Shown here in pieces: positions 2,165 to 60,240 of a stretch of DNA of 64,000 nt. The stretch is taken from positions 62,001 to 126,000 of the forward strand of contig WHVD01000014.1 in the NCBI GenBank assembly GCA_015178975.1, read 5' to 3'. Position 1 is the first letter of the stretch. Every line of letters begins with the position of its first letter. This DNA comes from Hysterangium stoloniferum (Eukaryota > Basidiomycota > Agaricomycetes > Hysterangiales > Hysterangiaceae). The notes beneath the pieces were generated by a model, which saw only the letters and a list, made by a program, of their open reading frames with translations, was not told where the DNA came from and ran no database searches. A program made the position numbers and the translations under genes.

Positions 2165-5100
2165 GCCACAGCCTTTAACCTTTTCGATTAGCAAGATCCC
2201 CTTTGAGGAATTAGCCAATGACTCGTCTGAATTGACTTCCAAACCAGACAAAGGAGTGCGTACTGAAAGAGTTGCACGGGCCTCACAAGATTGTACTATA
2301 GAACCGGAATCAGCTCAATTAGTACCAATCTTTGTAGGAGATCTTATTGGTGACCAATGGATAGTTGAGAGAGTTGTCTTACAGAACGACGATGGGAGTA
2401 TACTAGCTGCTCCCACCACCGCCATCTCTAGGGAACGTGCCGTGATACCTCTCGCTAATCCCTCTCTGACGCCAAGAATCATCAGACGAGGGGAAACCAT
2501 TGGATTAATTCACGACGCGAACAAAGGGCCCAGACTCCTAGATCTTCGACTGAGAGGGCATCAATGCAGTCGATGGCAACCAAGATCGCCCATCTCGTCG
2601 AAGGTCTATCAAAAATAGAAGAGGAAAGTGTCCTTAATCCTCAATCTTCTGGGCTGCCCCTGGAACGGGAACTCGCAGACGATTTCGAACCGGCAGGCCC
2701 CAAAACGTCAGAAGTTGCCACCACGGAAACATTTCGTGCCGAAGATCTGCATAAGCTAGTTAATTTAGGTCCTGACATCCCTACCGACATCTCCTCCCGC
2801 TTGGAGTCAGTATTAACTAAGAATGTCCTAGCTTTTGGAGTAGACGGGCGCTTAGGACAAGTAGATGTCAAGGTCAATGTCCCCTTAAAAGATGGCGCAC
2901 AACCTATTTCAATGTCAATGTTTCCAACCTCCCCGGCTAATAGGAAAGTCATTGACGAACAAATGGACACTTGGTTCCAACAGGGAGTGATTGAACCGTC
3001 CAAGAGTCCTTGGGGGGTGCCAGCCTTTGTCGTCTATCGCAACAGGAAACCACGAGTAGTGATTGACTATAGAAAGTTGAACAGCCTAACGGTTCCTGAT
3101 GAATTTCCACTGCCGTGTCAATTGGAAATCATGCAAGCGCTCTCGGGATCCAACATCTTATCTTCCTTCGATGCACTAGCTGGTTTACCCAACTTGAAAT
3201 GTTAGAGGAAGATAAGCCGAAGACAGCCTTCAGATCCCATTGAGGACTGTGGCAATTCCGGAGAATGCCCTTTGGACTTCGTAATGGACCTTCTATATTC
3301 CAAAGGGTTATGCAAACCGTACTTGCACCCTACTTATGGATATTCTGCCTAGTTTATATTGATGACATTGTGATCTTTTCTAAGACATGGGACGATCATC
3401 TAGAGCATTTGGACCAGGTCCTACAAGCCATCATTGCAGCGGGAATCACTCTCTCACCCAAAAAGTGCTACGTGGGGTATAATTCGATTTTACTACTAGG
3501 ACATAAGGTGTCTAGACTCGGCTTTTCGACCCATCAAGAAAAGGTCGCTGCTATATTGGAATTAGCCACGCCTTCTAAGATAGCAGACCTTCAACGTTTT
3601 CTTGGAATGGTTCTGTACTTCTCTGCTTACATACCATTCTACTCCTGGACGGTTGCTCCACTTTTCAACCTCTTAAAGAAAGGCGTTTGTTGGCATTGGG
3701 ATTCAGAACACGCCCGAGCTTTTGAAGACATCAAAGTTGCGTTGAGTTCAGCTCCAGTACTTGGACACCCTGCGAGCAGTATGCCTTATAGGTTATACAC
3801 AGACGCTTCAGACTTCGCGCTGGGATGTTGCCTCCAGCAAATACAAAAAATGACGCTTAAGGACCTAAAGGATATGAAAATTTATGCCCAAGCAAGGACA
3901 GCTTTTGATCAATCACGAGATGTCCCCATTTTTGTTACTCGTTATAAAACCAAGGAGCCGGAATTCACCTGGACGGATTCCTGGGCCGCAGATTTTGATG
4001 ACACCAGTGTCACAGTCGAACGCGTTATCGCCTATTGGAGCCGTACGCTCAAGAAAATGGAATGTAACTACTCAGCCACAGAGCGAGAAGTGTTAGCTGC
4101 TAAAGAAGGATTGGTCCATTTCCAGCCCTTTATCGAGGGAGAACATATCCTTTTGATCACTGACCATGCGGCGTTACAATGGCCAGATCTTACGAGAATA
4201 CTAATCGTAGACTGGCCGCATGGGGGGCGGTATACGCTGCATACCCCAGTCTGGAAATCCTACATAGAGCAGGACGGATACACAGCAACGTTGACCCATT
4301 ATCTAGACTTCCTCGAGTACCTGACTGTGCTAGCCCCGTGAGAGATGATCTCTTACCAATTGTAGCGGATTCTTATAACTGGAATGGCAACGAGATGTTA
4401 TGGGAGAACAAACCAGTGGAAAAGGCCGTCTTTCTCACTCATCACGAGTTAGTTGAACCTGTCAGAACTGTCAAAGAGGTCCCCCAAACGAAATGGGACT
4501 TGCACAACCTTCCCAGAAACAATGAGACTGATGAGGCGGATTTTACTCTCTCGAATCCACAATTGCTTATAGAGATTGATGAGAATTACGCTAAGGAACT
4601 TCGCGATGGATACCAGAAAGATCCCGCCTTCAGGAATTATTACGCCGCTGATCCCATTTCTCCAAACATGGTAGCCACTCCTTCGCATTATTTTATCGGC
4701 AAGAATAAGCTATTGTTCTTTCGAGATTTGGACTGGAAAAGTCGAATCTGCGTTCCTAGCAGCATGACGACAACCATACTCAAGCTGATACATGATAATC
4801 CTTTCGAAGGAGCTCATGCAGGTGGCCACAGGCTCTTTAATCTGATGAAAGACCGTTTCTTCTGGCCGAGGATGTTGCAGGACTGCGTGGCGTACGCTCG
4901 CAGCTGTGACATATGCCAGAAAACTAAAATTGATCATTCCGCTCGACAAGGAGCTCTTCGACCCGCGGATGTACCCCTAAGGCTGTTTGAGGTTGTCTCG
5001 ATGGACCTGATTACCAGATTGCCTCCTTCTACAGAGGGTGGTTATTCCACCATCTTCATCGCCGTGGATAAACTCACGGGGTTCCTTAATCTGTGAACCC

Positions 5101-6087
5101 ACTACTTCAGATCTATCCGCAGAAGGATTTGCGCAAATCTTCGTGAATAAAGTAGCCGCTCCTTTCGGCCTGCCTTCAAGGATAATCTGTGATCGAGACA
5201 AGAGATGGACCTGTAGGTTCTGGAGAGAAGTCTGCAAAGTATACGGAAGTGCCCTTGCAGTATCCTCATCCCACCATCCTCAGACCGACGGTCAAATGGA
5301 GAACGCTAATGCAATTGTGGAGCAAATGCTCAGAGCGTACTGCGCCTCTTCGAAGCCGAAATGGTCTAAATGGACTCAAGTAGTGGCTCATACCTACAAT
5401 TTGACGGTTCAAAGCTCAACAAGCTATGCACCGGCCTTTTTGCTGATGGGCTACTTACCAAGAGGAATGTCTAGCTGTCTAGGAGGGGACGACCCTGTGG
5501 TCCCCAGAGAATTATCGGATAGCCCTGTAGCCGACCAATGGATCTTAGAATTGGAAAATCACTGACAAGCGGTGCGGGATTCGATTGCATGAGCACAAGA
5601 AACCCAAGCTCGCAGTTACAACAAGAGATGGAGATTAGTGGAAGATATCTCAGAGGGGGATTATGTTCTGATTAATCCCCATTCTCTCGAGCTCGTCGAA
5701 GCCAAGGGACCTGGAAGAAAACTTATACACAGACGGATAGGGCCATTTGAGGTCTTGGAAAAGATCAATCCTCAAGTCTTCCGACTCTGCATTCCCTCGG
5801 AATATCAATTACATCCAGTGATTAATCGAGACCATCTTAAAAAGTACCACCTCTCCCCTAAGGAATTTGGATCCAGGGAGCTACTCGAGAACCCTCGAGA
5901 ACTCAATCGTAACAATGAGGAGTACGAAGTAGAAGCTATAGTAGGGCACAAAAAGCATCGAAATCGACTCCTTTTCCAGGTTCGATGGAAAGGATATGGA
6001 CCGGAGGAGGACACTTGGTTAAACGGCAATGACCTTCGTAATGCTCCCGCTCTTCTTAGAGCTTACAAGACTATTTATCGAATTTAA
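2165..6087 (+). pseudogene. gypsy-1 pol fossil (PR side, RT, RNase H, IN, chromodomain)
   Basis: Order of parts: a protease/linker stretch (about 2232-2650); reverse transcriptase (about 2900-3500) with KPRVVIDYRKLN, the RMPFGLRNGPS-type block and VYIDDIVIFS (YIDD catalytic box); an RNase H region (about 3780-4190, with YTDASDFALG); an integrase zinc region with HxxxxxHAGGHR and CDICQKTK around 4790-4925; the integrase core (about 5000-5450, SHHPQTDGQ); and a C-terminal chromodomain (about 5925-6050, with FQVRWKGYGPEEDTW). Domain order and the chromodomain place it in the chromovirus branch of Ty3/gypsy. It is not an open reading frame throughout and carries a handful of breaks. Confidence 0.9.
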
Positions 6088-13248: not shown

Positions 13249-14256
13249 TGTTAGGATCCCTGTTGTTTCTGACCTGCAAGCTGTTCTAGCTTCATAACCA
13301 TCCAATGTTCCACTATCAGTACCCCTGCTCATGGTAGCACCACCTGCAGCACCCCTGACACTTGTTTCTTTGTATCTTAGCACTTTAGCCTTCTGTCCCA
13401 TTTCCATTCCATTTCTGTCCTGTTCACTCCCCCATCACCATCTCCATATACACATCTTACTTGCCACCTCAGACCTTTTAGTATTGTTTAGTGCTTCACA
13501 TTTAGTTCCCTTTGTTTCCCCACCTTTGTCACTTACTTCCTTTGATCCATTTGACTCTTTGCTTCTTTGATTGGTCCTCCAATCATCCATCTAGCTGTAG
13601 TATAAAGCTTCTTTCATGTATGCTGCAGTTCTCCAGTTTGAATATTGACTTAGATTACCCCCTTCTAGTTCTCAGTCTTTCTGTTAGGATCCTGTCATTT
13701 CTGGCCCCCACAACTTGTTTTTGGACTCAATATACCTCGTCATCTCTCTGTTGGAACCCCTGCCCACATTATCACCACTCACAGAGCCCCTGACACTTGT
13801 TTGTTATAGTTTATTCCCCTTAGTTTTCCATTCTGTCTCCATTCAGTTTGCTCCCCCATCACTGTCTCCCTGTACACATCTATCTTATTTGCCACCTCAG
13901 ATCCTTTTAGTATTGTTTAATATTTTACATTTAGTCTCCCTGCCTTGTCATCAACTTCTTATGATCCATTTCACTCTTCACTTCCTTGATTGACCTTCTG
14001 ATCATCCATCTCAATGTAGTATAAAGTTCTTTTCATGTATGCTACAATTCCTCAGTTCAAAAATTGATGTAGATTACCCTCTACTAGTGCTCAGTCTCTT
14101 TCCTCCCTTCTTGATACCCTTGAAGACACTTTCGGCAAGCTGCAAACTCTTACCTTATGACTCTTAGTATTTTGGCCTACTGGTCAATTGAGCAAGTGTT
14201 GTTCTTCATTCTTATTGTACTATCCGCTCTGTTTGAAATACTGGAGCACCCTAACA
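13249..14256 (+). repeat. Tandemly duplicated LTR-like repeat (TGTTAGGATCC family)
   Basis: Two direct copies begin TGTTAGGATCC at 13249 and 13682. The first (433 bp) lacks the 3' part; the second runs to CACCCTAACA at 14256, giving TG..CA ends. Both share a C/T-rich body with matching blocks such as TTGCCACCTCAGA and AGTATAAAG. No target duplication is evident at either junction. Likely an LTR family with one truncated and one complete copy; no internal region is seen. Confidence 0.55.
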
Positions 14257-14316
14257 GTTCATATGAGGGTGCAACACATAAGTTGAAGCCAAGCTCCCCC
14301 ACATTTATAGAGTCAG

Positions 14317-14464
14317 TGTGAGAGGTATCCTAAAATATATCTTAATTATATTTTACCTCCCATACTTCTTTCTCCATTTTTACTACTACATTTCACATTT
14401 GGTAGTATTTACATTAGTTTGAAGTTCTATATACACCTGTGGATACATAGACACTTGTGGGCAT
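14317..14464 (+). mobile_element. LTR fragment related to family B
   Basis: Starts TGTGAGAGGTATCC, like family B (TGTGAGAGGTATGG), and is cut off after about 148 bp by the start of the next LTR. CG dinucleotides are almost absent. Confidence 0.45.
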
Positions 14465-15166
14465 TGTCAAGACCCGTTCCTGGGAACTCCACAGAGTATC
14501 CTCCAGACATTATACTGTATTAGGTTCTGAACCATCTTCCAGACCACTATCAAGATCTGGAATCCACTGGAACCCAACCCTCATCCCTCAAGTACCATCC
14601 CATTCTGTCAGTCTGCCCCTTGACTAGACACCTTCTGTTATGAACCAGAAAACCCACCAGTATCCACACTCCACCTTATCTGCACCTGACTCTCTATATT
14701 GTACCCAAGGTATAATTACAACTGGAGTACCTGCCAGGACCTGCACATCACCCTATATGCACCAGTCATCAGACTCTGCACATCAACCTGTCTATATCTG
14801 ACACTGTGTCTCATGCACCAGTCCTCAGACTCTGCCGGACCTGCACATCAACCTGTTTATACCCGACTCTCTGTGCCTGTCACTGGACTCTGACCAGACT
14901 CCCAGAACCCCTCTAACAGAGCATAGAACCCCATTCCCATATGGTCTAATGACCTGTCTAGTTTGTTCTCCACTTCCGTTCTGAATTCCCAGTTTAGTAT
15001 TTACTTGCTTCATTTTATGTTTAATAGTTCTGCCCCTCATTAATACTGTATTTGGTATTATTACATTCCACAGTCTATATAAGTCTCCTATACTCATGTA
15101 CTTACAATCCAGTTTGAATCTTGAACAAGTTACACCCTTGAACTACTTACACCCTGAATATGTCCT
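14465..15166 (-). mobile_element. LTR family F, truncated copy F2, inverted
   Basis: Aligns over most of its length with the reverse complement of F (15281-16335). Examples are the stretch around AATAGTTCTGCC and the block GGTATTATTACATT. It is cut at 15167 by LTR E. Compared with F it has lost nearly all CG dinucleotides. Confidence 0.65.
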
Positions 15167-15280
15167 TGTGAGGTATCAGCATTATCTCATAAGGTTCTCT
15201 TAATTTTCTTTGAATTATTTAATATTTTCTTGAATTTATTGAATTTTTATTATATTTTATTTATGAAATATAAGGCCTAG

Positions 15281-16335
15281 TGTTAAGTTCCTGAACAAAG
15301 CTCCACGGATAGTCCCGCGGAGGTTTCCGGTAACTATTCCGAACACACACTTGCTTCCGGGAAATAGTCCCACGGAGTCCCCGGGCAATAGGTCCCGGGA
15401 AAGTTCCGGGGATTATTAGTACAAGGAACGGTGATATCAGAATAATTACCAGAAAGTCTGGTGATATGACTGAGATGGACTTGGCTTCAGCTTATAGGCT
15501 GCGCCCTCGTACACTCATTCGGGTGTCCATATTTCGAGCTGACAGAATGCATACAGAAAGATATAGATTCCAGAGTTCCCGTGGGAGTTCCGGGAATCGA
15601 GTGTGCAGACAGACAAGAGGACTAGAGACTGTTCAAGGATCAAACTTGTTCGGGGGAAAACTAGTTTGAGATTGAAACTGGATTCTAAGTACATGAATAT
15701 AGCAGACTTATATAGACTGTGAAATGTAATAATACCAAATCCGGTATTAATGAGAGGCAGAACTATTAAACATAAAACGAAACAAGTAAATACTAAACTG
15801 GGAATAGGGACGGAACGGAACGGGAGCGGAGAACGAATCATGACAGATCATTTAACCATAACTGGAGCGGGGCTCAGTTAGAGGGGTTCCGGAAGTCCGG
15901 TCGGAGTCCGGTGACTTGGTGCACAGGATAGTGTCGGGTATAGACAGGCTTGATGTGCAGGAGGTCCGGTGGAGTCCGGTGGGTTTTCCAATGACTGGTG
16001 TGTGAGACACAGAGACAGATAACAGGAGCGGGGTTCTATGCTCTGTTAGAGGGGTTCCAGGAGTCCGGTCGGAGTCCGGTGACTGGTACATAAGACGCAG
16101 AGTGTCAGGTGTACATAGAGTGGAGTCCGGAGTCCGGAGGAGTCCGAGGACTGGTGTATGAGACACAGAGGGTTAGGTGCAGACAGGTGGGGTGCATACA
16201 GAGAGTCAGGCATAAACAAGTTGACATGCGGGCTCCCGTGGGAACTCCGGTTGTTACTATACAATATAGAGGGTCGGGAGCATGTAGGACAGGGTCCGGG
16301 GGCCCGGAGGCCGGTGGGTTTCCCAGTTCCTGACA
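15281..16335 (+). mobile_element. Solo LTR family F, nested in E1
   Basis: 1055 bp, TGTTAAGTTCC to TTCCTGACA, with an exact 5-bp target duplication CCTAG at 15276-15280 and 16336-16340. GC-rich and still CG-rich, so probably young. Contains the shared core GGCTTCAGCTTATAGGCTG at about 15483-15501. Body sequence is related to family G. Confidence 0.9.
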
Positions 16336-16478
16336 CCTAGTTCCTTTTAACTTCACATAATAATAGCATATATGAGCTCATATAATGCTATTATATCTTA
16401 GTTAATTTATTATAATTTTTAACTAATTATTTATATTTTATTTACTTAGTTATTGCTTCTCGGCACATTGCTTGCTCC

Positions 16479-16971
16479 TGTCATGAATCGAATTTTACTC
16501 AATAAAGTCGAATAAACAATCAAAGAATATTCAACAATATCAAATAAAGATGCCTCATTTGATGAAGTATTAATTCATTTTGTTGATAAAGTGTGAGGCA
16601 AAGATAGGACACAGAGGCTCACGAATAAATAAGTCGAAGAAAGGCTCGGAAAAAGTTCGACGATTATATAATACAGTAAATAATATAATATAGTACAGGT
16701 TTTCTGACTGACTTCCTTTGTTCCTATCATTGCCCTTATATACTATATATTATTTACCTATGATGATAATATGATATCAAAGTGAAATCATCAATGACAT
16801 CAAACTGAGACAAGTCAAAGATATTCGAGATTGTCGAAGATATTGTCAAAGAATAGTCGAGTTGGAAGTCGAATTGGAAGTCGAGTTGGAAATTGAGTCA
16901 GAAAGTTGAAGGAATGTCGAAGAAATATAATATTGAATATTATTAAAATTTGAGCTTGTACATTCATGACA
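16479..16971 (+). mobile_element. Solo LTR family C (copy C1), nested in E1
   Basis: 493 bp with perfect 10-bp inverted ends TGTCATGAAT..ATTCATGACA and an exact target duplication GCTCC at 16474-16478 and 16972-16976. It is a divergent relative of the LTR of gypsy X (50661). The 3' half contains a short run of GTCGARTTGGAA repeats (about 16855-16895). Confidence 0.88.
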
Positions 16972-17469
16972 GCTCCTATGTGTGCATTTTTGGAGTCATG
17001 TGACATATTAGATAAGCCTCCGACCTTGGGATATCATACAGTCACAAATGTGACTGTAACAACATACTCGAGTCATTATTTGATTCTGCTGACTCAGCAA
17101 TTGCTTCTGTCCTGGGACTGCGGCCTTGAACCTTCATGTTCAAGCAAAAGGTTGGAACTCTTGTCTCAGAGAGGGGAGTCATATGATAAATAAAAGGTAA
17201 AAAAATAAGTAGAATATGAGGTCATTATGATCTAAATAATGACCTCATAAAATAAATAAATAGTTAATTATTTATCAAGATGTATATAAGGAGGGCCAAG
17301 TTTCCAATAAAATCAATATTATCTCACATACTTTACTGTACAGCTCAGAAGCTTATCTCATCATTCTAAGGACAATAATAGCCTTAGTCTGATACACTAA
17401 CTGCAAGCACTTACACTTGCAGAATCTAGAACTCTTTGTCAGCAACTCTTGAACTTAGCTAATCATCTA

Positions 17470-17685
17470 CAGTGGGTCAAAAAACTGCCCCAATGTTTGT
17501 GCATTTTATTTTATTTTAGAAAGATTGATATTGTGTGAAGGAATGACATCAGCAAAAATTCTGAAAAATTCACATGATATACTAGAACATGTTGGCTATC
17601 TACCAACTTAAGAAATCATGTGATTCCAATAAAACCCCATTGCTCAATAAATCAAGCAAAATAATGGGGCAGTTTTTTGACCCTC
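17470..17685 (+). repeat. Tc1-type terminal segment with inverted ends (MITE-like)
   Basis: CAGTGGGTCAAAAAACTG at 17470 is matched by its inverted copy ending at 17685 (TTTTTTGACCCTC), and TA flanks both sides (17468-17469, 17686-17687). The 216-bp unit could be a free-standing MITE or the 5' end of the Tc1 element whose transposase begins at 17832. The AT-rich interior codes for nothing. Confidence 0.65.
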
Positions 17686-18031
17686 TATTATTTTCTCTGA
17701 TTTTCAATGTTACACACCAGTATAAGGTAGGAGTGGGTCATGTGAATCATCAACATGTCATGTGACCTTATTTGTATCAATTTGGCATGTTGAACTTTGT
17801 TCATTCATCTCCTTGACTCCTTACCACCACTATGAAATCCATCTCTGCTAAAAAGCATTCTTCTGTTGTTTCTCTCCTCAATGAGGGATATTCCCATTGT
17901 CAAATTCAAGCTAGGACTGGCCTGGGGAAAGGTACTATTGGCAGGATCAGTATGGAGGTAGAGGGGGATAAGGAAAATCATCCTGGTGGCTGTCCTTCCA
18001 AGCTTTCCCCTTATGATAAACAGTCAATTAT

Positions 18032-18751
18032 TGTTAAGAACTGGAAACTGACTAATGTCGGTGGCCGACAGGGACCGATCGGAAGGACTTGGCTTCAGCT
18101 TATGTGCTGCGCCCTCGCAAATATCCGTAGGATGTCCTTAAATTTCGGGCGGGCGAAGACTAGTCCTAGTGAGTACCTTTCGGCATGATACCGATCGGAA
18201 GCGAAGGACAAGTCGAGCGTCGGGCCAAGGGGTCGGGGCCAGGAGTGGGCGAGCGCACGCGAAGGCGGATGGGGGGATTCTTAGTATGAGACTGATACAG
18301 GCATATGAGGGTATTCTGAGTCGATATTCTGATTGCCTAGTAACTACAACTACAGCGGGTTCATATACAAGTAACAGGCGTCTAGAAAATACTAATGGGG
18401 AGAAGGGCGGAAAACGGTATTAACAATAAGCTTGACTAGGAACGGGAAGTTTATGATTAGTTCGGAGGCCGATGATAACCGAGAGCGGGATTACGATAAA
18501 AGGAAATGGTTCGAGAACTACAAATATAGATAGACATATGCGAAACATAAGATTGAACGGATCAACATAATAAAGGGGACGTATCAAAGTTTGACCAGAC
18601 AATACGAGTTATTTGACGTGGGTGTAAATGGAGTTTGATCTTCGCAAAACATTCGTCAGCTTCGGGGCCGATGGTTTCCAAGAGGATGACTTGAAACGTT
18701 GACAAGTGGCGATAACCTCGGGGCCGATAGGGTTGCGACACGGTCGTAACA
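18032..18751 (+). mobile_element. Solo LTR family H, inside the Tc1 transposase
   Basis: 720 bp, TGTTAAGAACTGG to GGTCGTAACA, with an exact target duplication ATTAT at 18027-18031 and 18752-18756. CG-rich. Contains the shared core GGCTTCAGCTTATGTGCTG at about 18091-18109. A CG-depleted relative lies at 49495-50219. Confidence 0.9.
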
Positions 18752-18856
18752 ATTATCCATCAAATCAGCTCTGGGAAGCTTGACAATGCTGTCCAAACCA
18801 CCCAATTCATAAATTCCATCATATCTACCTCTGTCACTCCTCAGACTGTTAGGAAT

Positions 18857-19672
18857 TGTTAGGATACGTACAGGGTGGGTTTCCGGAGAAACCCGCGGGA
18901 TATCTGGTAGGACTAGGCTTCAGCTTATAGGCTGCACCCCCGCTAGATCGTGTTGTCCAATTTCAGACAGGTGGACGGGAATCCTGGGGAGTCCAGGTGG
19001 GGGTTGTGGGTCAGGGGTCATAGGTCGGAGGTCGTGGGTCGTGAGTTGAGATTAGTGAGAGAGATAGATGCGCCGGAGCCCATGGGCTCTGACTAGTGTG
19101 AGCGGTGTAATTCAAGTAGGAGTTTTAGAGCAGAAAATGTATTAGATTACTGGGGGGAATCTAAGCCGATTTTCTGACTGGATTGTATGTACAACATCTG
19201 CCAGTTTAAATAGACCGTGGAGTGAATGTCATACCAAATCCAGTAATGATGAAATGAAATGAGCAAAACATAAAACGGGAATAGTAAACACCAAATTGGT
19301 GTTAGGAACGGGACAGAACGGAGCAGAGTCCGAATAGTGACAAATCATAAACCATAATGGGAAATGGAGCGGGAGTGGAGTCTGAATCGTGACAGGTCAT
19401 TTGACTAAAATGGGAACGGGGCTCTGTTAGAGAGGTGATGGGTTATACTGAGTGGGGTCCGGTGACTGATGTGCGGGATGAGGTCGGAAATAGACAGAGA
19501 CGGAGTCCGGTGAGTATTCCAGTGACTGAAACACAACGTAACGAAGATGAACATAGACGAGTATGACGTATGGAGTCTGGTGGGAATTCTGGTGAACTGA
19601 TAATGGGTGTGTATAGGGTGCGGGTGCGTATAAGTTAGTGCCTGGAGTCTGGTGGGATTTCTGGTCGTAACA
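18857..19672 (+). mobile_element. Solo LTR family G, inside the Tc1 transposase
   Basis: 816 bp, TGTTAGGATACG to GGTCGTAACA, with an exact target duplication GGAAT at 18852-18856 and 19673-19677. Contains the shared core GGCTTCAGCTTATAGGCTG at about 18916-18934. A 5' fragment of the same family is at 50585-50660. Confidence 0.9.
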
Positions 19673-20159
19673 GGAATGTGTTGAAGGAAGCTGGCTTTAG
19701 GTCAGCAACAAAGAAGAAAGTCAAAGGGGTCTCATCATCAGCAATGTCTAAAGTTTGCCCAATACCATGAAAATGGGACTATGGAGGACTGGAAGAGGGT
19801 GTTGTGGACTATAGAGACACCATTGGGAATTCATCGACATAAACCCCTAATTCCAGAATAGGGGGCACTGACAAAGTTTCTGCAAAATGGAAGGCAACCA
19901 TGGACATGCTGAACTGGACACCTCTCGATGGACCAAGCCAAGGACAGATACATTCCCATTTGACCCAGGACTCCCCCTCAAAAATTATGTCACATGGGGG
20001 ACAATCGTTATGTTGCGAGATCATTCTGGAACAATGATCTCACAACAGGGGGGCAGTATAGGGGGTATAGGACAAGGCGCATACGGGATTGTCATCTATG
20101 GCCAGCAAGAGCGCACAAACGTCTGTGTCACCAGTCTCGCCGATGGAACAGTTGAGAGC

Positions 20160-50219: not shown

Positions 50220-50584
50220 TGTGAGAGGTACGGTGAAATATAGTCTGGAAATATAGTCTGGATGAGCTCATACTATATTTCCATTATTATTTCTACTTTC
50301 TCTCTATTTTATTATATGCATATAATTAGTTTGGCGACCTATGCATTTGGTACATTGACTCTTGTGGGCGCATATGTGCCAGACTTATGTATTCTAGCAC
50401 TGGTAGTTAGAACTCAGACACTTTTTACCCCGCAACCACGATTTACCCAGACACCCAGTTAGTGTCCTGTAAGTTGTGATTGGGGTATCATCTCGACCGT
50501 CACAGACAGGCTTTAACTACTAGCGCAATCAGAGTTTCAAACTATACTAGTCGAAACTCAAACCATTATCTCAATCTGCGTGGA
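50220..50584 (+). mobile_element. 5' part of LTR family B (copy B'), nested in H'
   Basis: Starts TGTGAGAGGTACGG and follows B (50845) until GCGTGGA, where LTR G' begins. The 3' part is not found again in the window. Confidence 0.78.
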
Positions 50585-50660: not shown

Positions 50661-50844
50661 TGTCACGAATCAATTATTCTTCGATAAAGTCGAATAATAT
50701 TCTACTAATCAAACTCGAAAGCCTCGTTCGACGAAGTATATATTCGCCCTGTCGATGAAGTAAGAGGCTATTACCAGTCGCGAGAACTCACGGAAGTATT
50801 TGTCGAAGAAGTTACGACAAAGTAGATTACTAATATCACTAATT

Positions 50845-51474
50845 GTGAGAGGTATGGCGAAATACACTCAGGAAATATAGTCGGATGTGCTCTTACTATA
50901 TTTCCTTTATTATTTCTATTTTCTCTCTTTCATTATACCTATAATTAGTTCGACGACCTATGTATGCGGTACATCGACTCTTGTGGGCGCACACACGCCA
51001 GACTTATGTATTCTAGCGCCGGTAGTTTAGAACTCAGACACTTTTTACACCGCAACCACGACTTACCCAGACACCCGTTAGTGTCCTGTAAGTTGTGATT
51101 GGTGTATCGTCTCGACCGTCACAGACGGGCTTTAGCTACTCATTCAAACTGAGTTTCGAACTGTATCAGTCGAAACTCAATCCCTATCTCAACTTGCGTG
51201 GACTACATCCACGCTACTCTATTATTCGACTCTCTAACTACTCTACTTGCACTCGAGCAGTTATCCAGAATCGTACTTAACCAGTCGATTCTGCTTATTC
51301 GTTCTAGCTATCTACCTTACTTTAGATAGCTATTTCTCTCTACCGTATTGAACTACATAGTCAATATGCGTTCGGTCCGTATTAGACTTAGACAGTCAAT
51401 ACATAGTGGTATCGTACTTCAACGGTCGATATTCTTCGTATATAGAACGGTTAGAACTTCTACCACTCTTTACA
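50845..51474 (+). mobile_element. Solo LTR family B, inside the left LTR of gypsy X
   Basis: 630 bp, TGTGAGAGGTATGG to CACTCTTTACA, with exact target duplication CTAAT at 50840-50844 and 51475-51479. Full-length relative of the gypsy-1 3' LTR. The youngest layer of this nest. Confidence 0.92.
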
Positions 51475-51806
51475 CTAATATACAGATATTTCGACTGACT
51501 TCCCTCGCTTCTTTCGTAGCCCTTTTATGCTTTTCGTCCTATCGTTATGACTATGTTATGAACTAATTATGAAATCATATATGACATCGAAATGAGACAT
51601 GTCGAAAGAGATTCGATGGTGTCAAATAATGTTCAGTTTTGTCGAGTTGAATTTGATAAGTCGAAGAGTTGTCGAAAGTTACCTTTGAATGTTTGTGACA
51701 ATACGTGACATGTGACGGTTGTGACAGTATCCTCCCTTTGTGACCGAGCCCACGAGGTCGGAGTTTGAAAAGTTTTTTCATCGTCTATTTTCGTGTTCTT
51801 CAATCA

Positions 51807-52642
51807 ATGTCTGATATAGAAGTCGATCAACTCGAATCAGGATCCGAGTTTTTGGGTTTTGAGGATAGGAATGAGATTGTTGATGTGGTTAGTAAGTCAT
51901 TTCTGGGATTTCTTTAGAATTAGTTAATTAGTTATTTTTTAGAAGAAATTCCCAAAAAACGGATTGAAGATTGCGAAGAACCGTACAATAAGGCGACTCG
52001 TAAAGGAATTGGGATGCAATGGGAATTTGAGGCAAAATCGGACAATGCGTAATTTTTCGATTTTGTCGAACTTTTGTCGAATTTTGCTAATTCGATTTTC
52101 CCAGTTGCACAATGTGTTTCAACACGAATTTTGTGTGCAAGAAAAGTAATGCATCGTCGAATTGCGATCGGTGCAATCGATTGCATCGGGCCTGTTATTG
52201 GACCGTGAATAGGCCAGCCGGAAAACCGTGTCGTAATCGAAAAAAGAGTTGAAATGTCATCGAAGAATCGGAAGATGAAAATGAAGATGGTAGTCCAGGA
52301 ATTCGAAAGCTCGGGCAAAGGAAAAATAATCGTCACAAGGTCATGTCAAGAATGTCGAATTTTTCTAGACGGTCGAGAAGGTCGGAACATAGGTCGGATA
52401 AAGACTTGGAGAAAGAAATAAAATTGATTGGCGAAAGGATGTCAAAATTAGAAGATACCATGGAAGACTTAATCGGTGAGGTAAAAGTGTTCAGAAAGGA
52501 TTTTTCAGTTTTGTCGAAGAAATTGGTCGAAAGTGGCGATTTTAGTGAAGAGACTGATATTAGTGTGAATAGTGGAAGGTTTAGGAGGGCGTGGTTTGAT
52601 AAGATGGAGGAATTGAGAGAGGAAGGAATTGAAGATTTGTAG
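51807..52642 (+). pseudogene. Opposite-strand Zn2Cys6 / coiled-coil gene of gypsy X
   Basis: On the strand opposite the polyprotein, 81 bp inside the left LTR, a gene begins with ATG at 51807 (MSDIEVDQLESGSEF). Two GT..AG intron-like segments (about 51891-51948 and 52049-52104) separate its conserved blocks. The block at 52106-52195 has six cysteines spaced C-X2-C-X6-C-X8-C-X2-C-X6-C, the fungal Zn2Cys6 (Gal4-type) pattern, followed by a basic tail (NRPAGKPCRNR). The block 52343-52642 is charged and heptad-like (LEKEIKLIGERMSKLEDTM), a probable coiled coil, the usual dimerisation part of such factors. It ends about 105 bp from the end of the polyprotein, tail to tail. The copy is not fully open. 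Role inferred: element-encoded DNA-binding protein. Confidence 0.65.
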
Positions 52643-52747: not shown

Positions 52748-55700
52748 TTAATGTCGTGGAAGATTTGAATATTTTTGGTGAAATTCTTTGATAAGGTCGA
52801 AAGCATGTTCGAGATCTTGAGAGCCTAACCACGAAGTTTCTTCGTCTGTTCCTTCGTAACCTAACCAAGCAACTAAATATTGTAATGAATCCTTATATTT
52901 TTTATCGAATTTTGAATCCAAAATTTCTTGAATTTCATATTCGGGTTCTTCTTCAACATAAATCGGAGGAGGAGGAGGTTGTTTTCGATTTGGGAAAGTA
53001 TTGGGATAAAATAGTTCTAACATTGAAATGTGAAAGACGGGATGAATTCCTTTGAGATGATTGGGGAGTTTTAATGTATATGAATGAGATCCTGGTCGAG
53101 CAATGATTTCAAATGGGCCTAATAATTTTTCCGATAATTTTCTCGATGGTCGAGTTGTTTGAATAAAGTCGTATCGTACAAAGACCTGAGAATGGATCGG
53201 AAAGTCGAAAGACTCTTTTCGATGTATGTCGGAATATTTTTGATAACATATTTGTGCTTTCTGGATATTTGATTTGAGATGTTTATGTAGAGCTTCGAGA
53301 TCTGTTGTATAATCGCGAGCTAGAGCGGAAGCTAGATCTTTTTCAGGGTGAATTTCTAACAATGGATGATAACCTTTATTAGCAAAAAATGGCATTTCAC
53401 CAGTTGTTTCGGAAGGTGCATTGTTGTAAGCGAATTCGGCTAAAGGAAGTAATTCGGTCCAATTGTCTTGTTGATAATTTGAATATATTCGTAAATATTG
53501 TTCGAGAGTTTGATTAACTCGTTCAGTTTGTCCATCGCCTTCAGGATGATATCCGGAAGTAAAATGTAATTTCATGTCGAGTGCTGTTCCGAGAGATCGA
53601 AAGAAATGCGACACGAATTCGGATCCTCGATCGGAAGTTACATGACTAGGGACTCCATATTTTGAAAAGACATGTAATACGAAAAGTCGAGCGAGTTTGG
53701 GAGTGTTGATCGTAGTATAAGTTGGAATGAATATTGCTTGTTTCGAAAGTCGATCGATGATTACGAGTATTGAGTCGTAACCATTTGAGGTCGGTAATTG
53801 TTCGATAAAGTCCATCGAGATCGAATGCCATGGTCGAAGAGGGATCGGAAGTTGCTTAAGTAATCCAACGGGTCGATGTCGTGGAGTTTTCGATTTTGTA
53901 CACGTTACACATGATCGAATAAAACTTTGAATATCTTGTCAGAGTTGGGGCCAAAAGAAATCTCGATATATTGTTTGATACGTTTTCGTTTGACCGAAAT
54001 GACCTGCAGTAATATGATCGTGTCGTGTTTGAAGAACTCGAAGTCGGAGGGTTTGATAATCGAAAACGTAAATTCTGTTTCGGAAACATAAAAAGTCTTG
54101 TTCGCTCTTTTGCCAATCTTCTTCGGTACCATCGAAAATCTGTCAAATCTTGTCGAGAGTAAATTGATCTTCTTTTTGAGCTTTCAATATATCTTTCAAT
54201 AGTTGATCCGTATCCATAATAAGAGTAGCTTTTCTCGCTATTGGAAGATAATATGTTGCATGTAAGGAAGCTTGAATTTGCTCATTTGAAAATACCGGTC
54301 GAAGATTAGTCGGATTCTTTTTCGAGTAATCGGGTTCATTTGGATAAACATTGTTTCTTCTGGAAAGAACATCTGTTTTCAAATTTAGTTTTCCTGGTCA
54401 AAATCGAATAATTAAATTAAAGGTCGATAAATATTCTGCCCATCGAGCTTGTCGTCGAGACAAAATTCGAGTTGTCACAAAATATTCGAGATTCTTGTGA
54501 TCCGTTAAAACTTCAATTGGTTCTTTTGTTCCTTCGAAATAATGTCGCCAAATTTTGAAAGATTCAAATATTGCTAATAATTATTTTATTGTAAGTGTCG
54601 TAATTGATTTCGGAGGTCGAAAGTGTTCTTGAATGATAAGCGACTGGATGAATTTCGTTATCGGGAGTCTGCATGGAGAATATTGAAGCTATAGCATGAT
54701 CAGAAGCGTCAGTTTCGAGTATAGGTTTATAGTCTGGATTCCAATGAATTAAAATCGGAGCTGTAGTAAATTCTTTTTTCAAATAGTTAAATGCATGTCG
54801 ACATTTTTCATCGAAATACCATTGAACCTTTTTTCGAGTAAGTCGAGTCAACGGTAAAACAATTTCAGAATAACTTGGAATAAATCTTTGATAGAAATTC
54901 GCGAATCCTAAAAATGATTGAATGTCGTGGACTTTTTGTGGTTCGGGCCAGTCTTGAATAACTTTGATTTTTTCTTCGTCCATATATACGCCTTCAGGAG
55001 AAATAACATATCCTAGAAACTCGACACTGGTTTTGTGAAATTCGCATTTTTCGGGTTTTGCAAATAATCAATTTTGTCAAAGCCGTCGAAGAACTTCTTG
55101 AACTTGTTGTAAATGTTCTTTGAGATTGTCGGAAAATATTAGTATGTCGTCGAGATAGATAATTACCCAAATATCAAGTAAATCTGGAAATATTTCATTC
55201 ATTAATTGTTGAAAGGTTGCTGGAGCGTTGCATAGTCCAAAAGGCATAACCAAATATTCGAAAGATCCATATCGAGTCCGAAAAGCTGTTTTCCACTCAT
55301 CTCCTGGAGCAATCCTAACTAAATTATAAGCACCTCGGAGATCGATTTTCGTAAAATATTTTGCCGTTCGAAGTCGATCCAAAAGATCAGGAATTAAAGG
55401 AAGTGGATATCAATTTTTCCATGTGATTTTATTAAGTCCTCGATAATCGATGCAAAGTCGTAGGCTTCCATCTTTCTTCTTGACGAACAAAATCGGTGCG
55501 CCAGCGGGAGATTGCGACGATCGAATAAACTTCTTCAAAAGGTTCTCTTGGAGATATTCTCGTAACACTTGAAGTTCTGTCTCGGATAACGAATAGATCG
55601 GACCCATAGGTGGAATAGTTCCTTCTTCTAATGGGATAGCGTGATCATAACTTCGATGTTGAGGTAAAGCTTCAGCTTCTTTTTTGTCGAAAACATCCGA

Positions 55701-57748: not shown

Positions 57749-57912
57749 TGTCACGAATCGATTATTCTTCGATAAAGTCGAATAATATTCTACTAATCAA
57801 ACTCGAAAGCCTCGTTCAACGAAGTATATATTCGCCCTGTCGATGAAGTAAGAGGCTATTACCAGTTGCGAGAACTCACGGAAGTATTTGTCGAAGAAGT
57901 TACGACAAAGTA
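57749..57912 (-). mobile_element. Truncated right (5') LTR of gypsy X
   Basis: Matches 50661-50824 nearly base for base and ends abruptly at GACAAAGTAGA. The remainder and the target duplication are lost. Confidence 0.88.
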
Positions 57913-58158
57913 GAAGTTGCATGCACACAGTTGTTCATCCTGGATGACCAGTTGCATACACGCAGCTTCAGTGCTAGAGTAAAAGTTGCATGCACACAGC
58001 TGTTCATCCTGGTCCCTAGATGCCCTACCCTATGTAAAAGGGATCTGGTCATGACAAAGTGCTTACTCTCAGTGATATATGATTCACTGAGAGTTCCACT
58101 GTACAATACTACATGTATATTTTACGAGGAGATTCAAACTGATGACATTTCAAGACAT
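57913..58158. repeat. Short direct repeats and a hairpin
   Basis: AGTTGCATGCACACAG is present twice, 70 bp apart (about 57914 and 57984), each followed by TGTTCATCCTGG. A palindrome with CTCTCAGTG and CACTGAGAG arms lies at 58066-58093. A similar palindrome with similar downstream sequence is at 24515-24542. Confidence 0.6.
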
Positions 58159-58163
58159 ACACT

Positions 58164-59777
58164 GTGAAAGGCTGCTGTCTAATGCAGCCTTACATTGGCA
58201 TTGGTCCAGACATTGATAGGACCAAACTGTATTCCTCGAAAATGGCGAGTACGGTACATGATGATGACGGTAAGTTAAAACAATATGAAAAAACTACTAC
58301 GCGCGTCTGTGATAACGTAATCAGTATGTCGTAAGCCACCAGGCTTACACCCCTCCCCACTTTGAAAAATTACCATGCCAAATAATGATGTAAAAAAAAA
58401 TTGGAATGGTGTTTTCAATGGGAGAACAAAAAATTGCAAATGAGATGGTGAACTGTGCAATATGGGGGAATGATGGACGATGATGGACACTGATAACGGA
58501 CAATGCAGTACTGTGAGGGGGTACAGTTGTGAAAGGGTCCCAAAAATAAACAGATAAGAAAATCCAAAACAAGACTGTTGATATTCATCCAGACTTACAC
58601 TCCTCTCTATTCGGAACCTGAAAACCTGGATAAGGCACGGTTCACAAAGAGTAAGAAATAGTGGATTTGCGAAACCAAATGAATGGTCCGGAATGCAGGG
58701 CAAAGCCAGGCTTACACCCCTCCCTGATCAAAATTTGACAATATCCCCAACAACCAAGTCGGCAGACATGTCGATCCCTAACAGCGGATGAGTTGTGGAT
58801 TGACAAACACTACGGTAGACGAAATCGATACGACGGTGAAAATGAAGATTATAGAGATCCAAAAAATTGCTGCGGCTTCTATTGTGGTGCTGGAATAGAA
58901 TGGTAGAGGCTGGAGTCAAACTCGAATGGCACTGAGATCTGATTGACGGAAAGGAACTGAATGAGTGGGTTCCGGAACAAGTCAATATCCAAGTGTTGTG
59001 AATGAGACAAAGATGAACGGTACAGCAATGTGTAGGATAGGGTGAATTTCGACAATGGGATAATATGTGTACTGGAGTTGGTCAACGCTGAACGGCGGCG
59101 ACGGTAGTGATGGTAAAGGTGACAATCATAATGGACGTTGCAAAACAGCACGGGTGTGGGCCAAGCATGGGTCGGTTCAATTGGTTCGACGATAACATTG
59201 TATGACTGGCAGTTACGAGTGCGATACTGAAAACGAGTGCGGATGCAAGTGCAAGTGCAGGTGCGACTGCGAGTGCGGCACGATGTTGAAGTTATGATTG
59301 CGAGGTGGTGTCAAAATGGCGATGAGACAACGACGGTGAAGGTGGAAGTGCAACGTGGAGTTGGAGCTACGATTCTGGGACAAGTTTCAACAGTAGGCAT
59401 TAAATAAGATGGTGACCGCAGCTTGTAAGTGTGATGAATTGAATTTTATGTTGAGTGTGGGTGAGAGCAGTACGATAATTTCTGATTGGGAGAGTCAAAT
59501 GAGGATGTTGGATGAAAAATGAGTGGATGCGAACGAGTCGAAGGTGACGTGTTTGCGTTGTCGGAAAAGGCAAAGTCGATATCAAAAAAAAAGTGAAAGG
59601 CTGCTGTCTAATGCAGCCTTACATTGGCATTGGTCCAGACGTTGATAGGACCAAACTGTATTCCTTGAGAATGGCGAGTACGGTACACGATGATGACGGT
59701 AAGTTAAAACGATATGAAAAAACTACTACGCGCGTCTGTGATAACGTAATCAGTATGTCGTAAGCCACCAGGCTTAC
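58164..59777 (-). mobile_element. Small LTR element (TRIM-like), both LTRs present
   Basis: Two direct repeats of 184-185 bp, 58164-58347 and 59593-59777, differ at only a few bases. They flank about 1245 bp with no recognisable retroelement protein. The whole is bordered by ACACT (58159-58163 and 59778-59782). A purine-rich tract on the minus strand (GTGGGGAGGGGT) touches the left LTR, so the element probably reads on the minus strand. Too short to be autonomous. LTR similarity points to a recent insertion. Confidence 0.8.
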
Positions 59778-59782
59778 ACACT

Positions 59783-60240
59783 GTCTCATTTTTCCATTTG
59801 CGCATTCTTCAAAGCTCAATTACCTAACAAATATATGCATCCAATATGTAGCTGTAGCAGTCATGGATCATGTATATGAATGGCATTAAAGAGGTTTTTG
59901 AAACAGAGGTTTCGGAACAGTGAAGTTACTTTCAAATGGATGTCAGTTGGTGTTAAGATTTATAATAATTTCTATTTTTGGTAAATGAGATTATTCCCGC
60001 AAACTCAGATTTTAAGTGCTGGGCAAGATTGACCCCACAGGCACCCATATCTATCAGTTACTGTTCAGCAACCTTAGAAGCCTCATGCCCCCTGTCTTAC
60101 ACGTGACCTCTTACTTACATAATGTTTTGCTTTTTCCTCCTGCTCCTCATCTATACCATTCACTAGTTCATCCAGCCATACACCCTCATCCTATCAACCT
60201 GTCCAAATCCAGTCCCAGTCAGCCTATTTCAAGACAAATA
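59783..60240. other. Spacer between the TRIM and the Copia fossil
   Basis: AT-rich; it should hold the 3' end of the Copia element, but no LTR or purine tract was identified. Confidence 0.35.

Follow-up and report, generated by a model that had tools for sequence, protein, structure and literature searches.

An antisense gene beside the 3' LTR of a chromovirus

The window, by which we mean the whole 64-kb stretch of DNA that was analysed, belongs to a genome of 111 Mb. It carries on its minus strand a Ty3/gypsy chromovirus, here named element X, which extends from a 5' LTR remnant at 57749-57914, severed by another insertion, to the 3' LTR. The pol region at 52748-53938 (minus strand) comprises the integrase end, an SH3_Tf2-1 domain and a chromodomain (Pfam search: PF00385, 7e-8; PF24626, 8e-17; PF00665, 2.2e-8), i.e. 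the succession of Ty3/gypsy integrase and chromodomain by which chromoviruses are recognised. The 3' LTR is interrupted by an insert of ~629 bp (50844-51472): the U3-side part at 51473-51726 (minus strand) adjoins the internal region and matches both LTRs of copy L061, and the outer part lies beyond the insert at 50661-50843 (minus strand). In L061 the full LTR measures 429 bp and the two ends are 98% alike. The polypurine tract, AAAGGGAGGA in the gag-pol sense, is situated beside the LTR edge at 51730-51739 (minus strand). Two observations concern the insertions: part of the insert in the 3' LTR (50844-51202) has 86% likeness to 50220-50584, and just past the cut in the 5' LTR the segments 58164-58363 and 59593-59792 form direct repeats of 95-97%, 1.43 kb apart, which may represent a small LTR-bounded element.

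Opposite gag-pol, the plus strand bears a gene of three exons and two GT..AG introns with 243 codons including the stop (242 amino acids), as delimited in an alignment of 30 copies. Exon 1 (51807-51891) begins with the ATG and holds 28 codons plus one base; intron 1 (51892-51942) reads GTAAGT...TTTAG, exon 2 spans 51943-52048 and intron 2 (52049-52104) reads GTAATT...CCCAG. Exon 3 (52105-52642) encodes a block of six cysteines, a basic tail, an acidic stretch and a coiled coil, and ends with the stop. The gene stands tail-to-tail with pol, and the gap of 105 bp between the two stops agrees with the distance of about 105 bp given in an earlier, sequence-only reading of this DNA. That reading had also proposed a gene on the strand opposite gag-pol, which holds, with the corrections that the gene is spliced and that the window copy is a pseudogene with an in-frame TGA at 52250-52252 (plus strand). 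The claim that the gene starts 81 bp inside the 3' LTR proved mistaken: the edge of the LTR is at 51726, and from there the ATG (51807) is 81 bp away on the internal side. A gene start within the LTR is ruled out by the LTR edge as derived from the comparison with L061.

The gene structure is widely retained among the 30 aligned copies. The start ATG is present in 29 of them (L021 lacks it), the first donor is GT in all 30 (GTAAGT in 29, GTACGT in L020), the first acceptor AG is lost in L006 only (29/30), and the second acceptor AG is found in 30/30. The second donor GT is kept in 22/30 and lost in L007, L010, L015, L020, L025, L027, L028 and L030. Nine copies (L002-L005, L007, L013, L019, L022, L030) are free of stops and frameshifts; two of these, L007 and L030, have lost the second donor, and frame and all splice sites are intact in 7/30. 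Of 45 copies of the X pol, 42 have the antisense exon alongside, as had been anticipated for an element-borne block recurring at the same place. Decay of the X copies (L001-L063) is largely at CpG, and many of the changes among the 30 aligned copies of the gene are from CpG to TpG or CpA, which suggests CpG methylation of X elements.

Purifying selection and the encoded protein

The antisense gene is under purifying selection of near pol strength. At non-CpG sites the ratio of nonsynonymous to synonymous differences (N/S) relative to expectation is 0.18 for transitions and 0.22 for transversions among 12 stop-free or nearly intact copies, and 0.13 and 0.18 among five diverged copies; differences of CpG type indicate weaker constraint (0.55 and 0.43). 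The corresponding values for pol in ten copies are 0.23 and 0.09, and 0.64 for the CpG type. Because copy pairs share history, single pairs were also tested: in the pair L013/L059 we counted 15 N and 46 S differences (expected 44.6/16.4; p 3.7e-15), and the weakest of six single pairs gave p 5e-4. The two other forward frames have N/S >1. One reverse frame mimics the low ratio (0.24), as expected because its third positions coincide, and a reverse-frame ORF is ruled out by the 4-20 stops that each reverse frame contains across gene plus 3' spacer in nine copies. A non-coding chance ORF is likewise ruled out by the frame-specific selection. A six-frame search of the window finds the six-Cys pattern (spacer 5-12) a single time, and none of 4000 dinucleotide shuffles of 51807-52642 contains it.

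The six cysteines lie at 52106-52195 (plus strand) in the spacing C-X2-C-X6-C-X8-C-X2-C-X6-C, which can be read directly as it had been reported. In an alignment of 41 X copies they are kept in 40/40, 41/41, 41/41, 41/41, 40/41 and 41/41, the sole variant being a Tyr in L018; the expectation that the cysteines do not vary freely is thus borne out, with five invariant and one varied once. The reported basic tail is present behind the block in X and reads NRPAGKPCRNRKKS in the window copy. The heptad-like block noted earlier corresponds to a coiled coil of six heptads at 52406-52531 (plus strand; a positions LILLFL, d positions IMMVFL), where 12/12 a/d positions are L, I, V, M or F, a result matched by 0/20000 residue shuffles. 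For the L061 protein AlphaFold2 models one long helix over the coiled coil (pLDDT 80-94 in its core) and places the six-Cys block at low confidence (pLDDT 35-45).

The consensus of the fungal Zn2Cys6 binuclear cluster is CX2CX6CX5-12CX2CX6-8C. Proteins of this type form dimers set by a coiled coil and read CGG-type triplets, and the basic residues that contact DNA sit between the second and third cysteine. The cysteine spacing in X and in four sister families of chromoviruses, Y, Y2, Z and V, fits this consensus. The loop between Cys2 and Cys3 differs: FNTNFV in X has no basic residue, TKRGRT in Y has three, TARNRA in Y2 two, and SIRNMT in Z and NDRNTE in V one Arg each. The Zn2Cys6 family profile PF00172 (Zn_clus) gave no X match at E up to 10; none of eight proteins scanned reached its cut-off, and two of the eight matched at all (best E 1). 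The host genome has 42 Zn_clus matches, none at the listed X sites by eye. A membership of the X protein in the Zn2Cys6 transcription-factor family, as the sequence-only reading had it, is therefore not upheld by either the profile or the loop.

A weak resemblance to PPR1 emerges from profiles in which the sister families are included. When a profile of the eight exon-3 proteins was compared with the PDB, PPR1 came first (E 0.014) and was the sole Zn2Cys6 row below 0.1; within the limit of E 10 the comparison gave 24 rows, and eight of these were Zn2Cys6 regulators aligned to the six-Cys block, the seven besides PPR1 having E values of 0.66-9.4. A profile of Y, Z and V only returned PPR1 at 0.053 and LAC9 at 1.6, together with three XIAP zinc-domain rows at ~2 on the same block. 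The search with X only yielded no Zn2Cys6 rows in the PDB; here the coiled coil matched the zippers of CREB and GCN4.

Sister families, putative promoter and motif arrays

In the families Y, Y2, Z and V the site that the gene occupies in X likewise holds an antisense gene of three exons, whose protein combines a coiled coil with six cysteines (spacer 9-10). The antisense exon adjoins pol in 53 of 57 examined Y, Y2 and Z pol copies. The Cys block is missing from the four others (Y-type L073, L076, L078 and L086), whose pol frames run to 903-1302 codons, so that the gene need not always be present in cis; these copies (4/57) fit either action in trans or dispensability of the gene. Residues common to the eight aligned exon-3 proteins are the six cysteines and two Glu near the C-terminus, and nothing else. 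X aligns with Y, Z and V in the Cys block only (P 0.0038, probability 8.8%), and intron phases, determined by eye, are 1 and 2 in X and 0 in Y, Z and V. Searches of protein databases for relatives beyond the host genome (E<=1; E<=0.1) and scans of viral contigs gave no match, in collections that may hold few fungi. Many mushroom-genome proteins labelled 'Zn(2)-C6 fungal-type domain-containing' presumably resemble the Y type. In the window itself, 18030-18751 resembles the LTR side of L071, a family-Y locus, at 96.7%, and 18032-18601 is 94% like an insert within the pol of L061 (4849-5419).

A promoter in the 3' LTR had been suggested, and the sister families point elsewhere. A TATA-like box (GCATATAAAAG in Y, CGCATATAAG in Y2, GAGTATAAAAAC in Z, CCTATATAAAAA in V) stands 56-63 bp before the exon-1 ATG, counted by eye, within the internal region between the purine tract at the LTR edge and the ATG. 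The Y2 box was read by eye as TATAAG and is directly followed by an out-of-place ATG. No TATA-like box was recognised in X.

Each family except Y and V shows a clear enrichment of a short motif in one orientation: GTCGA in X and GTCGG in Y2 and Z, less clearly GTCGG in Y and GTCCG in V. In X, Y2 and Z the motifs cluster in the U3 adjoining the antisense gene. The single-orientation GTCGA array of the window copy occupies 51601-51675 (plus strand; starts at 51601, 51641, 51660 and 51671; four intact and two decayed GTCGA as counted in L001). Ranked by z, GTCGA leads the strand-specific 5-mers of X both in the LTR (9 vs 1.5) and in the internal part (35 vs 10.3); a second 5-mer count places it behind TCGAA. 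Its strand ratio in the window copy of X is 47:3, pol included, and its density is 25.6/kb in the LTR versus 6.6-9.6/kb inside. GTCGG ranks top in the Y2 LTR (8 vs 1.2) and in Z (9 vs 0.8), an enrichment not found in the Y LTR (4 vs 2.1). GTCCG in V is distributed 9:1 by strand, yet comes sixth by z. As a control, 0, 1 and 0 of 60 equal-length pieces of the window at 24-44 kb attained an excess as large as that of the LTR. The motif count in X pol exceeds that of synonymous-codon shuffles; in X gag and in exon 3 of Y, Y2, Z and V it is not clearly above such shuffles. The Y2 and Z arrays include CGG; that of X, the family with no basic loop in its cluster, does not, CGG occurring twice in the X LTR against 5.5 expected. 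With respect to the antisense gene the arrays are upstream; those of the 5' LTR are located in the U3 that should drive gag-pol.

Three further observations on the window touch these motifs. In the region 14000-20000, the piece at 15-20 kb shows GTCCG with a strand ratio of 13:0, resembling family V. At 0-2000 the two strands are both dense in GTCAC, with 23 and 15 occurrences, which probably reflects a tandem or inverted repeat. A diverged gypsy integrase at 4878-6078 (plus strand), 25% identical to that of X, shows no GTCGA or GTCGG enrichment.

Related systems and candidate functions

To Zn2Cys6 regulators such as PPR1 and GAL4 (PF00172) the antisense protein is alike in its six-Cys spacing, the basic tail (in X), the coiled coil and the weak PPR1 match. 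It is unlike them in that all eight scanned proteins stay below the PF00172 cut-off, X is without a basic loop and the gene is borne by an element. HBZ of HTLV-1 is a bZIP protein whose gene starts in the 3' LTR. In the gene described here the ATG lies 81 bp internal, a putative metal cluster takes the place of the bZIP and no bZIP family is among the Pfam hits; an HBZ homologue found no support.

HBZ, mentioned in PMC11963269, shares with our gene the antisense position beside the 3' LTR and a zipper. Closer in site are the plant genes termed aORF-3R, antisense between pol and 3' LTR: gene23 of Grande, the ORF of RIRE2 and the TRP28 ORF of Retand (PMC7264820; PMC11963269). They agree with ours in site, orientation, presence in most copies, a promoter of their own (Grande) and a proposed nuclear or DNA-binding role, DNA binding being predicted for the TRP28 domain of Retand (PMC11963269). 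They differ in their plant hosts and, for Retand, in its non-chromovirus nature, and the excerpted descriptions contain neither a six-Cys cluster nor arrays of self-motifs. The functions of antisense genes in LTR elements are called unknown in a review (PMC7264820). Among fungi, the Boty-like elements of Botrytis cinerea carry the antisense gene brtn (Zhao et al. 2011; PMC8365987; PMC7264820), which by its description resembles ours as an antisense gene at the same site of a fungal gypsy element; the earlier statement that no fungal element of this kind had been described was too strong. A survey of fungal Gypsy elements likewise records, in a figure legend, an 'add. ORF' of unknown function, an additional reading frame located in an element that is fungal or related (PMC2864245). 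Antisense genes at this site are thus already known from plants and Boty; for a six-Cys antisense gene of a fungal element and its motif arrays, searches of an open-access library showed no description. The arrays recall VANC of VANDAL, which is also element-encoded and is associated with dense same-orientation arrays of short motifs that vary among related families (PMC5735166; PMC10398659). Dense, family-specific motifs in one orientation were found here in X, Y2 and Z, and more weakly in Y and V. VANDAL is a DNA transposon, and the binding and anti-silencing of VANC are experimental, in contrast to our case, which is known from sequence.

Our preferred reading, to which we give a probability of roughly 0.55, is that a group of fungal chromoviruses has long carried this accessory gene, whose product would act as a dimeric, motif-binding regulator of its own element. 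A promoter next to the LTR would drive transcription of the gene against gag-pol, and the transcript would be spliced, giving a small protein with a six-Cys cluster that may hold zinc and a coiled coil through which it would dimerise. The cluster probably binds DNA, and its candidate target is the short motif of the family (GTCGA for X, GTCCG for V, and GTCGG for Y2, Z and, with less clarity, Y), present in many same-orientation copies and densest in the U3 of the X LTR; the link between motif and protein is correlative and was found after looking. The bound protein would regulate its own element by activating transcription and/or preventing silencing: the element is presumably methylated, decaying at CpG, and the protein may keep silencing off. 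Several families of one genome share this architecture, most with a motif array of their own, and they offer a test case of whether retroelements encode sequence-specific self-regulators or anti-silencers. The self-matching arrays are the surprising part of the finding.

Other explanations have to be weighed. The X motif is strongly one-stranded across the whole element including pol (47:3), as an RNA signal predicts, and the protein might bind element RNA as a nucleocapsid-like or packaging cofactor that reads UCGAC, CCGAC or CGGAC repeats in the genomic sense RNA. We consider this unlikely, given that motif density peaks in the LTR (25.6/kb vs 6.6-9.6/kb inside), that the top fold hint is a DNA-binding Zn2Cys6 protein and that DNA targets of the VANC type form one-orientation arrays as well (PMC5735166). 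Alternatively, coiled coil and basic tail could serve nuclear import or integration in the pre-integration complex, the motifs being caused otherwise, as host factor sites or methylation context. The tail does follow the cluster in X, and a nuclear location is reported for GENE23 of Grande (PMC7264820); this explanation leaves the motif arrays and the separate promoter unaccounted for, and we hold it to be just as improbable.

The CpG decay of old copies, which suggests that the elements are targeted by methylation, would also suit a real gene that counters silencing through contacts with host chromatin enzymes and without sequence-specific binding; family-specific arrays speak against it, and we give it little credence. 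With 42 Zn_clus matches in the host, a captured host Zn2Cys6 transcription-factor gene, carried as a passenger without function for the element, would have candidate sources. It is nevertheless very improbable in view of purifying selection near pol strength, the presence of the gene in most examined copies of several families and the lack of a Zn_clus match in X. Antisense transcripts can feed silencing (PMC7264820), and the gene might thus yield a non-coding antisense RNA that tunes gag-pol, its frame arising by chance. This is the least credible of the alternatives, and as a sole function it is contradicted by the frame-specific purifying selection (p 3.7e-15 in one pair); the splice sites and cysteines are conserved as well.
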